64,000 bases of DNA from Arenimonas sp. SCN 70-307 (GTDB taxonomy: Bacteria; Pseudomonadota; Gammaproteobacteria; Xanthomonadales; Xanthomonadaceae), in contig NZ_MEDO01000014.1 of the NCBI RefSeq assembly GCF_001724815.1, forward strand, positions 576,568-640,567, written 5' to 3'. A model generated the notes under the pieces. The model ran no database searches and was not told the DNA's origin. It saw only the letters and a program-made list of their open reading frames with translations. Shown piece after piece: positions 11,539 to 64,000 of this stretch; positions within the stretch are counted from its first letter, which is position 1, and the number at the start of each line of letters is the position of its first letter. Both the position numbers and the translations under genes were made by a program.

Positions 11539-11625
11539 CCGAAAATGGGGTCAGAGTCAATTTCGGCCGAGAACTCCGGCTTCCGCCGCACCTTCGCCCG
11601 AAATTGACTCTGACCCCATTTTCGG
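11539..11625. repeat. 28-bp inverted repeat, GGGGTCAGAG type, in a divergent region
   Basis: Arms at 11539-11566 and 11598-11625 are perfect inverted copies around 31 bases. Each contains GGGGTCAGAGTCAATTTCGG or its complement. Unlike the other palindromes here it lies between two divergent starts (aceE and the SpoIIE phosphatase), so it cannot act as a shared terminator. It may affect promoters or mRNA 5' ends. Confidence 0.85.
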
Positions 11626-14085: not shown

Positions 14086-14462
14086 GCCTGAAGGTCCAGA
14101 TCCAGCCCGCCGCCAACGGCAGCCAGCGCGTCGCCATCGCCGGCCGCCTCGACACCCACACCTACCAGGAACTCGACCGGCAGCTGGCACCGGTGCTCGA
14201 GACGATGAACAAGTCGCTGGTGCTCGACCTGGCCGGGCTCGAGTACATCAGCTCGGCCGGCGTGCGCTCGATCTTCAAGGCCCGCAAGGCCCTGGCCGCG
14301 CGCGGCGGCAAGGTGCTGGTGGTCAACCCGCAGCCGCAGATCCAGAAGGTCTTCGACGTAGTGAAGGCCGTGCCGATGAACGAGATCTTCTCGTCCGTGG
14401 CCGAGGCCGACGCCTACCTCGACGCCATGCAGCGCAAGGTCCTCGAAGGCGACGACGACTAA
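14082..14462 (+). CDS. STAS-domain anti-sigma factor antagonist
   Basis: The 126-residue protein is a single STAS domain of the SpoIIAA/RsbV type. LVLDLAGLEYISSAGVRSIF contains the phosphorylatable serine in the conserved S-S-A-G turn (about residues 57-61). It starts inside the end of the HATPase gene (ATGA overlap), giving a complete phosphatase, kinase and antagonist switch. The phosphorylation state would decide whether it sequesters the upstream kinase. Its TAA stop forms the edge of a perfect 40-bp inverted repeat. Confidence 0.92.
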   Translation: MSLKVQIQPAANGSQRVAIAGRLDTHTYQELDRQLAPVLETMNKSLVLDLAGLEYISSAGVRSIFKARKALAARGGKVLVVNPQPQIQKVFDVVKAVPMNEIFSSVAEADAYLDAMQRKVLEGDDD

Positions 14463-14540
14463 AGAAACGGGGTCAGGTTCACTTATTGAAAAGGGCCCGC
14501 AATGCGGGCCCTTTTCAATAAGTGAACCTGACCCCGTTTC

Positions 14541-14542
<2 letters not shown>
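14462..14542. repeat. Perfect 40-bp palindrome between STAS gene and maeB
   Basis: The whole convergent intergenic gap is one inverted repeat: arms 14462-14501 and 14503-14542 with a single central base. The outer ends read AAGAAACGGGGTCAGG, the middle ATTGAAAAGGGCCCGC. Each arm's outer base or bases belong to a TAA stop codon, one for each flanking gene. It would form a very stable hairpin in either transcript and probably acts as a bidirectional terminator. Confidence 0.92.
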
Positions 14543-23718: not shown

Positions 23719-24384
23719 ATGGGCGCGGACGGCCTGCATTACCTCGCGCTGGGCGATTCCTACACCATCGGCGAATCGGTGCCCGAGGACGGCCGCTGGC
23801 CGGTGCAGCTGGCGGCGGCGCTGCGCGCGCGCGGCGTGCCGCTGGCCACGCCCCGCATCATCGCCACCACCGGCTGGACCACCGACGAGCTGTCGGCGGC
23901 GATGGACGCGGCCGAGCCGCTGGGCCAGTGGGATTTCGTCTCGCTGCTGATCGGCGTGAACAACCAGTACCGCGGGCGCGCGGTGGACGAATACCGCGTC
24001 GAGTTCACGGCCTTGCTGGCGCGCGCGATCGCGCTTGCCGGCGGTCGCCCGGACCGGGTGCTGGTGCTGTCGATCCCGGACTGGGGCGTCACCCCCTTCG
24101 GCCAGGGCAGCGGCCGCGACACCGCGCGCATCGCCGCCGAACTCGACGCCTACAACGCCGCCGCCGCCGCCGAATGCGCCGCCCGCGGCGTGGCCTTCGT
24201 CGACATCACCCCGGCCAGCCGCTCGCCGGGCAACCAGCCCGACCGCATCGCCGACGACGGCCTGCATCCCTCGGCCCTGGCCTATGCCGACTGGACCGCC
24301 CTCGCCCTCCCCACCGCCCAATCCCTGCTCCAAGAAAGGGGGTCAGGTTCACTTCTGGGAAGTGAACCTGACCCCCTTTCTTGA
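23719..24384 (+). CDS. SGNH/GDSL-family hydrolase ending in a palindrome
   Basis: The product is 221 residues from the ATG at 23719. Block I is LALGDSYTIGE with the catalytic serine, block III is LLIGVNNQYRG with the oxyanion Asn, and block V is DDGLHPSALAY with the Asp and His of the triad. This predicts an esterase or lipase acting on small esters or acyl groups. No signal peptide is evident, so it is likely cytoplasmic. The last 17 residues (ERGSGSLLGSEPDPLS and neighbours) are encoded by an intergenic-type inverted repeat that has become part of the gene, and the TGA lies at its far edge. The native end was probably near LPTAQSLLQ. Confidence 0.88.
   Translation: MGADGLHYLALGDSYTIGESVPEDGRWPVQLAAALRARGVPLATPRIIATTGWTTDELSAAMDAAEPLGQWDFVSLLIGVNNQYRGRAVDEYRVEFTALLARAIALAGGRPDRVLVLSIPDWGVTPFGQGSGRDTARIAAELDAYNAAAAAECAARGVAFVDITPASRSPGNQPDRIADDGLHPSALAYADWTALALPTAQSLLQERGSGSLLGSEPDPLS
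24331..24383. repeat. 24-bp inverted repeat inside the 3' end of the SGNH gene
   Basis: Arms 24331-24354 and 24360-24383 are perfect inverted copies (AAGAAAGGGGGTCAGGTTCA core) around a five-base loop. It belongs to the same family as the palindromes at 14.5, 25.9 and 50.1 kb. Here it is translated and supplies the stop codon. Confidence 0.9.
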
Positions 24385-24465
24385 ATGCACCTGTCCCCGA
24401 CTGACGTGCGTCAGGGTGGGTTCGACGAGGGGCGGTAGAATGGCGGCCTACCCACGGAGCCAGCC

Positions 24466-25395
24466 ATGTCCCTTTCGCCTGAAACCCGCGCGCGCATCGA
24501 GCAGATCCTCGGGGCGCACCACGTCGTGCTCTTCATGAAGGGCAACCCGGACGCGCCGCAGTGCGGCTTCTCGGCCAAGGCGGCCGGCATCCTCAAGGGC
24601 CTGGTGCCGGGCTTCGGCCACGTGGACGTACTGGCCGACCCGGCCATCCGCGAGGGCATCAAGGTGTTCGGCCAGTGGCCGACCATTCCGCAGCTGTACG
24701 TCGGCGGCGAGCTGTTGGGCGGCAGCGACATCATCGAGCAGATGCTCAACAGCGGCGAGCTGCACCAGGTGCTGGGCCTGCCCGCGCCCGACCGCACGCC
24801 GCCGGCCATCGAGATCACCCCGCCGGCCGCCGAGGCCATCGGCCGCGCGCTGGCCAACGCCGACGAGGGCGTGGTGCTGCACCTGACGGTGGATCCGCGC
24901 TTCAACGCCCGCTTCGAGCTCAAGCCGGCCTCGGGCCACGAGGTCGTGGCCGAAGCCGCCGGCCTGCGCCTGCACCTGGACCTGGCCAGCGTGCCGCGCG
25001 CCCGCGGCCTGCGCATCGACTGGGTGGAGGATGCGCGTGGCGCCGGCCTGGCCATCCACAACCCGAACGCGCCGCCGGCGGTGAAGTCGATGGACGTGCA
25101 GCAGCTGCACGACCACATCATCGCCGGCACCATCGACGTGATCGACGTGCGCCCGGCCCACGCCCGCGCCATCGCCCCCTTCCCGCATCCGCACGAAGTG
25201 CTCGACGAGGACAGCCGCGAGCGCCTCGAGGCCCTGCCCAAGGACGTGCCGCTGGCCTTCCTGTGCCACCACGGCAATTCCAGCCGCCAGGCCGCCGAGT
25301 ACTTCCGCCAGCTGGGCTTCCACGACATCTACAACGTCGAGGGCGGCATCGACGCCTGGTCGGTGCGGATCGACCCGTCCGTGCCCCGGTACTGA
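24466..25395 (+). CDS. Three-domain Grx4 protein: monothiol glutaredoxin, A-type-like, rhodanese
   Basis: The 309-residue protein starts with a monothiol glutaredoxin of the Grx4 class (about 1-105): FMKGNPDAPQCGFSAKA with the CGFS active site, TIPQLYVGGELLGG for glutathione binding. Residues 112-205 resemble an A-type iron-sulfur carrier (IscA/HesB): ITPPAAEAIGRAL, RIDWVEDARGAGLAIHNPN. All three cysteines normally used for metal binding are absent there. The last 100 residues are a rhodanese domain with the active-site loop CHHGNSS, ending EGGIDAWSVRID. Grx4 proteins carry [2Fe-2S] clusters bound with glutathione, so a role in cluster transfer with a sulfur-handling domain attached is likely. 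Confidence 0.92.
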   Translation: MSLSPETRARIEQILGAHHVVLFMKGNPDAPQCGFSAKAAGILKGLVPGFGHVDVLADPAIREGIKVFGQWPTIPQLYVGGELLGGSDIIEQMLNSGELHQVLGLPAPDRTPPAIEITPPAAEAIGRALANADEGVVLHLTVDPRFNARFELKPASGHEVVAEAAGLRLHLDLASVPRARGLRIDWVEDARGAGLAIHNPNAPPAVKSMDVQQLHDHIIAGTIDVIDVRPAHARAIAPFPHPHEVLDEDSRERLEALPKDVPLAFLCHHGNSSRQAAEYFRQLGFHDIYNVEGGIDAWSVRIDPSVPRY

Positions 25396-25862: not shown

Positions 25863-25922
25863 AGAAAGGGGGTCAGGTTCACTTCCTGCGCTGGCGCGGG
25901 AAGTGAACCTGACCCCCTTTCT
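25863..25922. repeat. 24-bp inverted repeat between lipoprotein gene and amn
   Basis: Arms 25863-25886 and 25899-25922 are perfect inverted copies (AGAAAGGGGGTCAGGTTCAC core). The repeat begins one base after the lipoprotein stop and ends three bases before the AMP nucleosidase stop codon, so it fills the convergent gap. It probably acts as a two-way terminator. Confidence 0.9.
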
Positions 25923-36688: not shown

Positions 36689-36697
36689 GCAGCAAAG

Positions 36698-36744
36698 GGG
36701 GCCAGGGGGCCTTGGCGTCCGGAACGCCAAGGGTCCCTGGCCCC
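36698..36744. repeat. 21-bp near-perfect inverted repeat, GGGGCCAGGG type
   Basis: Arms 36698-36718 and 36724-36744 pair with two mismatches (GGGGCCAGGGGGCCTTGGCG). It lies between two convergent genes and is followed on the plus strand by GTTTCTTTT, so it looks like a strong terminator for the propeller-amidohydrolase transcript. Confidence 0.85.
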
Positions 36745-36760
36745 GTTTCTTTTCGGGGCC

Positions 36761-39198: not shown

Positions 39199-39241
39199 GG
39201 GGACAGGTGCAATTTTCCAAAGGAAAATTGCACCTGTCCCC
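39199..39241. repeat. 20-bp inverted repeat, GGGGACAGG type
   Basis: GGGGACAGGTGCAATTTTCC and its exact complement flank three bases. It is the first of two tandem palindromes filling the convergent gap before ppc and begins six bases after the stop of the small gene. Confidence 0.9.
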
Positions 39242-39248
39242 GATGCCT

Positions 39249-39291
39249 GGGGTCGGAGGTAATTTCGCTTCGCGAAATTACCTCCGACCCC
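39249..39291. repeat. 20-bp inverted repeat, GGGGTCGGAGG type
   Basis: GGGGTCGGAGGTAATTTCGC and its exact complement flank three bases. It ends six bases before the ppc stop. A near-identical element lies at 42050-42093, at the other end of ppc. Confidence 0.9.
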
Positions 39292-42027: not shown

Positions 42028-42049
42028 GCCCCAAGCCTAAAGACAAAAC

Positions 42050-42093
42050 GGGGTCGGAGGTAATTTCCCTTCCGGGAAATTACCTCCGACCCC
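42050..42093. repeat. 20-bp inverted repeat, GGGGTCGGAGG type, upstream of ppc
   Basis: GGGGTCGGAGGTAATTTCCC and its exact complement flank a TTCC loop. It lies between the stop of the SEC-C gene and the ppc start, both on the minus strand, so it can end the gshA transcript before ppc. Confidence 0.9.
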
Positions 42094-42102
42094 GGGCCTG
42101 GC

Positions 42103-49362: not shown

Positions 49363-50109
49363 ATGGCCGAAAAGAAACCCGACCGGCTGCGCTTGCTCAG
49401 CGCCAACATCCAGGCGGGCTCGAGCACGCGCGCCTACCGCGACTACGTCACCCGCAGCTGGTCGCACGTGCTGCCCAACGGCAAGCGCATCAACCTCGAC
49501 AGCCTGGCCGAGCTGGCCAGCAACTACGACCTGGTGGGCCTGCAGGAGTCCGACCCGGGCAGCCTGCGCTCGGGCTTCACCAACCAGGCCGACTACCTGG
49601 CCGAGCGCGCGCACTTCCCCTACTGGAGCCACCAGCCGAACCGGCGCATCTCGCGCATCGCCGGCAGCGGCAATGCGCTGCTGAGCCGGCTCGAACCCGC
49701 CGAGATGCTCGACTACGCCCTGCCCGGCCGCATCGCCGGCCGCGGCGTGCTGCTGGCGAAGTTCGGCCAGGGCAAGGACGCCTGGCAGCTGGCCATCACC
49801 CACCTCTCGCTGGGCGCGAAGTCGCGCCAGCTCCAGCTCGGCTTCCTGGCCGAGTTGTTGTCGGATGCGCCGCGCCTGGTGCTGATGGGCGACTTCAACT
49901 GCGACTTCGACGCGCCCGAGATGCGCCCGCTCTACCGCCAGACCTCGCTCGAGCCACCGCCCGAACGCGTGTCCACCTTCCCCAGCTGGGCCCCGCAGCG
50001 CGGCCTCGACCACGTACTCACCGGCGGCTTCCAGGTGCTCGACTACAAGGCCGTGCCCGCCGCCGGCTCCGACCACATGGCGGTGGGCGTGGAGCTCGCG
50101 CCCAAATAG
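49363..50109 (+). CDS. Endonuclease/exonuclease/phosphatase (EEP) family protein
   Basis: The 248-residue protein has the EEP fold: LRLLSANIQAGSS (N), LVGLQESDPG (metal-binding Glu), ITHLSLGAKSR, LMGDFNCDFDAPE (catalytic Asp and Asn), GLDHVLTGGF and SDHMAVGVEL (catalytic His). All catalytic residues are present and there is no signal peptide. The substrate could be a nucleic acid or a phosphoester. It starts 53 bases past the dsbA terminator and ends at a palindrome. Confidence 0.9.
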   Translation: MAEKKPDRLRLLSANIQAGSSTRAYRDYVTRSWSHVLPNGKRINLDSLAELASNYDLVGLQESDPGSLRSGFTNQADYLAERAHFPYWSHQPNRRISRIAGSGNALLSRLEPAEMLDYALPGRIAGRGVLLAKFGQGKDAWQLAITHLSLGAKSRQLQLGFLAELLSDAPRLVLMGDFNCDFDAPEMRPLYRQTSLEPPPERVSTFPSWAPQRGLDHVLTGGFQVLDYKAVPAAGSDHMAVGVELAPK

Positions 50110-50161
50110 AAAGGGGGTCAGGTTCACTTCCTGCGGCGGAAGTGAACCTGACCCCGTTTCT
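50108..50161. repeat. 24-bp inverted repeat between EEP and peptidase genes
   Basis: Arms 50108-50131 and 50138-50161 pair with one mismatch (AGAAAGGGGGTCAGGTTCAC against the complementary arm). The left arm's first bases belong to the TAG stop of the EEP gene, and the right arm reaches the peptidase stop. It likely terminates both transcripts. Confidence 0.9.
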
Positions 50162-60146: not shown

Positions 60147-61373
60147 ATGCGTCGCTACCTGGTCGGCGGCGCGGTGCGTGACCGGCTGCTCGGCCTGCCG
60201 GGCGGCGACCGCGACTGGGTGGTGGTGGGCAGCACGCCCGCCGAAATGGTGCTGGCGGGCTACCTGCCGGTAGGCAAGGATTTCCCGGTCTTCCTGCACG
60301 CGCAGACCAAGGAAGAGCACGCGCTGGCGCGCACCGAGCGCAAGACCGCGCCCGGCTACCACGGCTTCGTCTTCCACGCCGCACCCGACGTGACGCTCGA
60401 GCAGGACCTGGCGCGGCGCGACTTCACCATCAACGCCATCGCCGAGGCCGAAGACGGCACGCTGGTCGATCCGTTCGGCGGCGCGCGCGACCTCGGGGCG
60501 CGGGTGCTGCGCCACGTGTCGCCGGCCTTTGCCGAGGATCCCGTGCGCATCCTGCGTGCGGCGCGCTTCCTGGCGCGCTTCGCGCCGCTGGGTTTCACCA
60601 TCGCGCCGGAAACGCTGGCCTTGATGCGCGACATGGTCGCCGCGGGCGAAGTCGACCACCTGGTGCCCGAACGCGTGTGGCAGGAGCTGAAGAAGGCGCT
60701 TGAGATGCCGCGCCCCTCGGCCGCCATCGCGCTGCTGCGCGCGTGTGGCGCGCTGGCGAAGCTGCTGCCCGAAGTGGACGCGCTCTACGGCGTGCCGCAG
60801 CGCCCCGAGTACCACCCCGAGGTGGACACGGGCGTGCACGTGCAGATGGTGCTGGACATGGCGGCGCGACTGGCGCCGGGCGACGCGCTGGTGGGCTTTT
60901 GCGCCCTGGTGCACGACCTGGGCAAGGCGCTGACGCCGAAGGACAAGCTGCCGCGCCACATCGGCCACGAGCACAGCGGCGTGCGGCCGCTGCGCGCGGT
61001 CTGCGCGCGCTACAAGGTGCCAGCGGAGTTCGCCGCGGTGGCCGAAATCGTCTGCCGCGAGCACCTCAACGTGCACCGCATCGACGAGCTTCGCCCCGAT
61101 ACCGTGCACGAACTGCTTTCGCGCTGCGACGCCTTCCGCAAACCGCAGCGGGTGAAACAGCTGGCGCTGGCCTGCGAAGCCGATGCCCGCGGCCGCCTGG
61201 GCCGCGAGGAGGACGATTACCCGCCGGCGCGACGGCTGCTGGCCCTGCACGATGCCGCAGCGGCGGTCTCCGCCGGCCACGCCGTGGCCAAGGGCCTGAG
61301 CGGCCCCGCGGTGGGCGACTGGCTACGCGAAGCCCGCATCGACGCCATCCGCGCCGCACGCGCCTCCCTGTAG
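60147..61373 (+). CDS. cca: CCA tRNA nucleotidyltransferase with HD domain
   Basis: The 408-residue enzyme adds and repairs the CCA end of tRNA. The nucleotidyltransferase head has [20 protein letters not shown] with the catalytic DxD (GDRDW), [14 protein letters not shown], and the template-like basic region [15 protein letters not shown]. An HD phosphohydrolase domain, [14 protein letters not shown] with HIGHEHSG, is attached as in the multifunctional E. coli enzyme. The final codon pair CTG-TAG comes from the GTAG-type palindrome, so the last residue and stop lie in that repeat. Confidence 0.96.
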
Positions 61374-61460
61374 GAGCGCCTTCAGGCGCGAATCTTTTGC
61401 TTTTGCCTTTGACTTTGCCTTCGGCAAAAAAAGGATTCGCGCCTGAAGGCGCTCCTACAG
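61368..61460. repeat. GTAG-headed REP pair between cca and the VanZ-like gene
   Basis: Arms 61368-61394 and 61434-61460 are perfect 27-base inverted copies (CTGTAGGAGCGCCTTCAGGC) around 39 bases that hold a smaller hairpin (TTTGCCTTCGGCAAA). The TAG of each outer GTAG is the stop of one flanking gene. A second copy lies at 63849. Confidence 0.92.
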
Positions 61461-63849: not shown

Positions 63850-63920
63850 GTAGGAGCGCCTTCAGGCGCGAATCTTTTGACTTCGCCTTTGGCAAAGAAG
63901 GGATTCGCGCCTGAAGGCGC
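63850..63920. repeat. GTAG-headed REP pair after the pteridine reductase gene
   Basis: GTAGGAGCGCCTTCAGGCGC and an inverted partner (GATTCGCGCCTGAAGGCGC) flank a hairpin-containing spacer of similar type to the 61.4-kb copy (CTTCGCCTTTGGCAAAG). The right arm ends in TTGTGTC where the head GCTCCTAC would be, so one terminus is degraded. Beyond it, to 64000, I see no gene. Confidence 0.88.
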
Positions 63921-64000
63921 TTGTGTCTGGCTTTTGCCCTAGGGTTTGGGGTGAGAGCGGGGTGCGGGACGCCGCTGTTGCGCAGTGCTCGAAAGCACGA

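Follow-up and report, generated by a model that had tools for sequence, protein, structure and literature searches.

A palindromic repeat translated as the C-terminus of a GDSL-type hydrolase in Arenimonas sp. SCN 70-307

In Arenimonas sp. SCN 70-307, the reading frame of a GDSL/SGNH-type hydrolase gene passes directly into a perfect palindrome, which encodes the last 17 residues of the protein and ends the frame at its outer edge. The gene lies in the window (the whole stretch of 64,000 nucleotides analysed here), on contig C14 of a draft assembly, G000, of 2.93 Mb in 35 contigs. The best explanation, and in our judgement a likely one, is that a repeat of a transposase-associated family was inserted downstream of the gene, that a deletion later removed the stop codon, and that the resulting tail has been tolerated. 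So read, the locus is a clean and datable example in which one small deletion makes a mobile palindrome beside a stop part of a coding sequence, and a sister species keeps the earlier state.

The hydrolase gene and its repeat-encoded end

The features of the locus are as follows.

23719–24384, + strand: GDSL/SGNH-type hydrolase gene (open reading frame, PF13472 profile, alignment of 32 homologues)
24331–24355, + strand: left arm of the palindrome, CAAGAAAGGGGGTCAGGTTCACTTC, free of stops in all three forward frames as read from the sequence
24359–24383, + strand: right arm, coding for the end of the tail; one of its frames contains a stop (AAG TGA), and another reaches the TGA in use at the outer edge
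24382–24384, + strand: TGA stop of the hydrolase, whose T and G are the final bases of the arm and whose A lies immediately outside
24383–24398, unstranded: GAATGCACCTGTCCCC, right outer arm that survives from a compound element (alignment with the sister species G021, relatives at the same site)
24466–25395, + strand: next gene, with glutaredoxin, Fe-S biosynthesis-like and rhodanese domains (open reading frame and profile), about 80 bp from the palindrome

The translated product has 221 residues and the C-terminus GSGSLLGSEPDPLS. PF13472 (GDSL-like lipase/acylhydrolase) covers residues 10–190 (E 1e-25, 91.8 bits against a cut-off of 32.9) and the GDS, N and DxxH blocks are conserved, which places the protein in the GDSL/SGNH group; by protein sequence, the nearest named species are Arenimonas malthae, donghaensis, daejeonensis and terrae. 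Residues G12, D13, S14, N81, D180 and H183 are invariant among the 32 homologues, and the catalytic motifs GDS14 and D180-x-x-H183 are all N-terminal to the tail, so that an earlier note on this DNA was right to place the triad (S14, D180, H183) before the repeat. That note had also read the inverted repeat in frame as the protein's C-terminus, with correct coordinates and peptide, while putting the repeat-coded part at 14 residues; it actually comprises 17, residues 205–221 (QERGSGSLLGSEPDPLS), behind a native-like part of 204 residues. The expected C-terminal peptide reads ...ERGSGSLLGSEPDPLS, and the coding signal of the gene, measured by a codon-usage score, is clear as far as the repeat.

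The two arms of the palindrome are 25 bp long, 100% complementary and separated by a 3-nt loop, TGG. As RNA, the stem has a dG of −53.8 kcal/mol over a 111-nt stretch (z −8.2 against shuffles); this score and the copy number of the family (see below) rule out a chance palindrome. Since the left arm is free of stops and the right arm contains them, a gene that loses its stop before such a repeat will usually end in or at the repeat, and here its edge does supply the TGA, as had been proposed, apart from the final A.

Among orthologues from about 30 relatives, most end near residues 204–207 and none has the tail. Counted from the D of DGLHP, the proteins L009–L014, L016 and L020 stop after 26–28 residues, against 42 in the window protein, and the closest orthologues end in, for example, SLLR, HLLQF, RLLKDL or RLLRK. 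The tail is therefore absent from the C-termini of close relatives, as the earlier note had anticipated, and the contrary pattern that it had named, the tail QERGSGSLLGSEPDPLS conserved without the DNA palindrome, was not found in any orthologue when C-termini were compared in the 32-homologue alignment. Other endings occur at the same place: the hydrolase of G012 (L021) carries an RSGFSRD-type tail derived from a GAGCGGCTTCAGCCGCGA repeat, and that of G020 (L015) has an unusual long tail that is possibly repeat-derived. These tails suggest that the end of this gene has been extended repeatedly and is a tolerant position.

In an AlphaFold2 model built with the orthologue alignment (mean pLDDT 85), the last helix spans residues 186–205 and residues 208–221 fall below a pLDDT of 50; the tail is, in this model, a disordered addition behind a complete hydrolase fold. 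Positioned past the last helix, it appears to be tolerated; it looks nearly neutral, and the enzyme carrying it is probably still active. 

The stem in the mRNA could outweigh the peptide, if unwinding of 25 bp led to lower yield, tagging or mRNA cleavage and left the gene partly silenced. There are reports that E. coli REPs near a stop codon lead to stalling and to tagging by tmRNA. The hydrolase stem is very stable and ends at the stop, and RNase III cleavage together with stop loss has been proposed for the same arrangement at Coxiella enhC/QMITE2 (PMC5896051); by analogy, the stem may delay termination or be a target of RNase III. Most copies of the repeat, however, lie directly behind the stops of apparently intact genes, and partial silencing as the main consequence is a possibility that we regard as doubtful. 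That the tail is a selected functional extension, for localisation or stability for instance, is hardly credible: it forms part of the translated frame of a gene whose coding signal is clear until the repeat begins, but it is missing from the orthologues examined, is predicted to be disordered with its sequence set by the DNA repeat, and has counterparts in L021 and possibly L015 that point to tolerance rather than conserved function.

Origin of the fusion

The nearest relative found is G021, a sister species with 86% protein identity, in which the TAA of the hydrolase is intact and a compound repeat follows directly. Its locus reads CTGCTCCGTTAA, then GGGGACAGGTGCATTTTAAGAAAGGGGCCAGG..., with outer and inner arms behind the stop. 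The window reads CTGCTCC, then AAGAAAGGGGGTCAGG...; here the right outer arm GAATGCACCTGTCCCC is retained without its left partner, which in G021 reads GGGGACAGGTGCATTTT. A global alignment of the two loci contains a single 22-nt gap, GTTAAGGGGACAGGTGCATTTT, which takes in the native stop and the outer left arm. In G019, whose hydrolase protein is also 86% identical, the site has no repeat.

Because G021 keeps the stop and one 22-nt gap separates the two states, downstream insertion followed by deletion is the simplest history, and the order of events, insertion first, is inferred from this comparison. In an ancestor of both the window species and G021, a compound copy with GGGGACAGGTGCATTTT arms outside and AAGAAAGGGGGTCAGGTTCACTT arms inside would have arrived just behind the hydrolase stop. 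The lineage leading to the window species would then have lost about 22 bp, native stop and left outer arm included, by a deletion that joined the frame to the left inner arm. Ribosomes would now read on through the stop-free left arm and across the loop until they meet the TGA at the right arm's outer edge, leaving a 17-residue, presumably disordered tail on an intact fold and an enzyme that is probably active. No clear microhomology was seen at the ends of the assumed deletion, and no intermediate between the two states occurs among the relatives compared; as these relatives are separate species, the event can be dated only roughly. A deletion by way of the short repeat TTAAG found in G021 was considered and rejected, as it would retain the TAA.

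The earlier note had proposed that the repeat entered the gene and replaced its native stop. The repeat-derived tail and the loss of the stop are upheld; direct entry is not, given the repeat behind an intact TAA in G021 and the single gap. Transposition of the palindrome into the last hydrolase codons, displacing the stop in one step, would have the same net outcome and is the simpler reading for a sortase gene (L150) and a RimI-like gene (L152) whose relatives have no repeat at the site; in-frame copies within YoaA-like, HrpA and methylmalonyl-CoA-mutase-like genes also speak for it. At the hydrolase, though, it needs extra explanations for the unpaired right outer arm GAATGCACCTGTCCCC and for the compound repeat after the intact stop in G021, and we consider it unlikely. 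Independent insertions at one hotspot in the two species are possible, and the inner arms of G021 (GGGGCCAGGTTGACTT) do differ from those of the window at several positions. An assembly or sequencing artefact masking the native stop is very improbable: perfect hairpins are hard to sequence and the 35-contig assembly is a draft, but the flanks align cleanly and G021 has a repeat of the same type at the same locus.

The repeat family and its transposase

The palindrome belongs to a dispersed family. Its core, GGGGTCAGGTTCACTT, has 54 forward and 51 reverse matches genome-wide (105 in all, with at most one mismatch) against none for a reversed-pattern control, and is present in 14 of the 27 Arenimonas genomes searched. 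In the stretches around each match, from which the family census was taken (two further matches may be missing), there are at least 54 clusters with at least 101 arms, and most clusters are +/− inverted pairs. The 16-nt core hardly varies among these arms and is preceded by AAGAAA[C/G], beyond which conservation ends. Three further copies lie in the window.

14462–14542, unstranded: family copy between convergent gene ends (repeat search, codon-usage score)
25863–25922, unstranded: family copy (short element-free sites in G002, G010 and G023)
50108–50161, unstranded: family copy (repeat search)

Orthologous family sites are found both occupied and empty among relatives. At the G021 site matching window position 14462, it is another palindrome, GGGGACAGGTGCATTTAAG, that supplies a tail (frame read by hand). 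The window also contains other GGGG-headed palindrome families at 11539–11625, 36694–36748, 39199–39291 and 42049–42094 (GGGGTCAGAGTCAATTT, GGGGCCAGG, GGGGACAGGTGCAATTTT and GGGGTCGGAGGTAATTT), sites at which G021 differs in occupancy and family, and an inverted-repeat family of a different type, AGCGCCTTCAGGCGCGAATC, at 61368–61460 and 63855–63921.

Four Y1_Tnp genes are present in the genome. One of them, L038 (G000:C10:17382, PF01797, 247 aa), is bounded by family arms, two on each side, with GGGGTCAGGTTCACTT at L038 positions 1339 and 1363 on the left and the inverse at 2158 and 2182 on the right; as the sequence itself shows, the stop codon of the transposase gene falls inside the repeat terminus. 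The near-invariant GGGGTCAG of the 101 arms fits the GGGGWSAS terminus (consensus from PMC3733652), so that the terminus, a flanked Y1/IS200-like transposase and dispersed inverted pairs, the marks of the TIRYT/GGGGWSAS class, are all found. Assignment to the classical GTAG REP/RAYT class was rejected: the GTAG tetranucleotide is absent from the arm ends (AAGAAA[C/G]GGGGTCAGGTTCACTT), and L038 scores 65 bits against the REP-associated tyrosine transposase model NF047646, below its cut-off of 80. We infer that the family repeats are mobilised by this IS200-like Y1 (HuH) transposase. As part of the whole explanation favoured here, the hydrolase palindrome is probably a non-autonomous copy of a REP-like/TIR family, with this transposase gene as the autonomous partner in the genome.

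The relation of the family to gene ends was surveyed with a home-made census, based on a codon-usage score and covering the repeat copies of the host genome. A repeat is faced by 65 gene 3' ends, and 57 of these have their stop in the span from 15 nt ahead of the repeat edge to 3 nt beyond it; the eight sides that are read into belong to the hydrolase, two other tails, four in-frame intragenic copies and a candidate at L158:2071. The hydrolase fusion is thus atypical of its family. The two other tails are those of a class GN sortase (L150:2008; C-terminus LQETGSGSLTHK) and a RimI-like acetyltransferase (L152:2016; C-terminus EKGGQVHLPGRRAPG), both of which take their last residues and stop from the same repeat family, and their relatives end otherwise. 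The intragenic copies are found twice in HrpA (L149:2002, L149:3106), in a YoaA-type helicase (L148:1993) and in a methylmalonyl-CoA-mutase-like gene (L123:1882), and all four exit the repeat as SEPDP(L/V).

Between the arms, the inner sequences vary from copy to copy, yet each can pair with itself: of 170 outermost inner positions 155 are paired, whereas exchanging right ends between copies gives 65.5 ± 7.2. In ten copies the inner length is 42–44 nt, with little common sequence. At L159:2031, L159:2917 and the mutase gene (L123:1882), the inner sequences are alike between the window species and G021 (L177, L315; none of 500 shuffles as good), and the arms around them belong to different GGGG subfamilies in the two species. 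At L159:2917, G003 has only a bare intrinsic terminator, AAAAGGCCCGCTTCGGCGGGCCTTTT, that resembles the inner hairpin; terminators like it are generic, and other sites are without such a pattern. This is a lead rather than a result, pointing to arm exchange or to arms set round existing hairpins. In its strong form, in which arms are placed or exchanged around a pre-existing hairpin and the transposase flavour of each genome overwrites them in place, the idea is tentative and we would not expect it to hold; if true, arm overwriting could also explain the loss of the hydrolase stop and outer arm.

Two simpler accounts of the inner sequences were set aside. That they are always native terminators wrapped by arms holds at L159:2917 and fails at L129, L130 and L133, where the terminators of relatives are unlike them. 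That the inner sequence of the mutase copy is native linker was suggested by a weak match in G016, which 28 of 500 shuffles equalled, and is not relied on. Between the orthologous copies L158:3873 and L243, the two arms have changed in step (AAGAAAG/AAGAAAC; ATCGCC..GGCGAT against ATTGCC..GGCAAT in the inner part), which is what mutual correction of hairpin arms would produce; a literature search on quasipalindrome correction in repeats of this kind gave no match.

More useful than this single case is the wider pattern: copies abut stops, arms are near-invariant and inner hairpins vary, while between species the arms differ around the same inner hairpin. This makes Arenimonas a good system for the study of how Y1-transposase repeats spread.

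Comparison with known systems

Tyrosine transposases flanked by GGGGWSAS inverted repeats, together with dispersed families of such repeats, were described by Di Nocera et al. 2013 (PMC3733652); Arenimonas and its arm sequence do not appear in the text consulted. According to the same paper, the termini of GTAG REPs often supply stop codons, and slightly more than 10% of intragenic repeats are at ORF ends. With the TIRYT-associated TIR repeats and TIRtrons described there, the Arenimonas family shares the GGGGWSAS fit of GGGGTCAG, a repeat-bounded Y1 transposase whose 3' end overlaps the terminus, and many solitary inverted pairs; unlike them, its copies are packed flush against stop codons. 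The Rickettsia palindromic elements (RPE), as presented in that paper, are likewise translated in frame inside genes, as are the copies in L123, L148 and L149, but they form another family, and the Arenimonas copies are mostly intergenic.

The hydrolase has the properties of a MITE-derived C-terminal extension that replaces a native stop, its orthologues ending earlier and without element-coded residues, and closely similar cases are already published. In enterobacteria, an RU-1 (ERIC) element is fused to the 3' end of the ECA3499 amidase gene beyond the conserved domain, and the normal stop is eliminated (PMC2759123); there too a repeat is joined to the end of an enzyme gene with loss of the stop, but the element is of the 127-bp ERIC type, with another sequence. 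Another is Coxiella burnetii enhC, where an indel joins the gene to the QMITE2 behind it, adding 33 residues and a stop at the element, and where another strain keeps its stop directly before QMITE2 (PMC5896051). The two Coxiella states match those of the window species and G021, although the MITE family is a different one and the comparison is between strains there, between species here.
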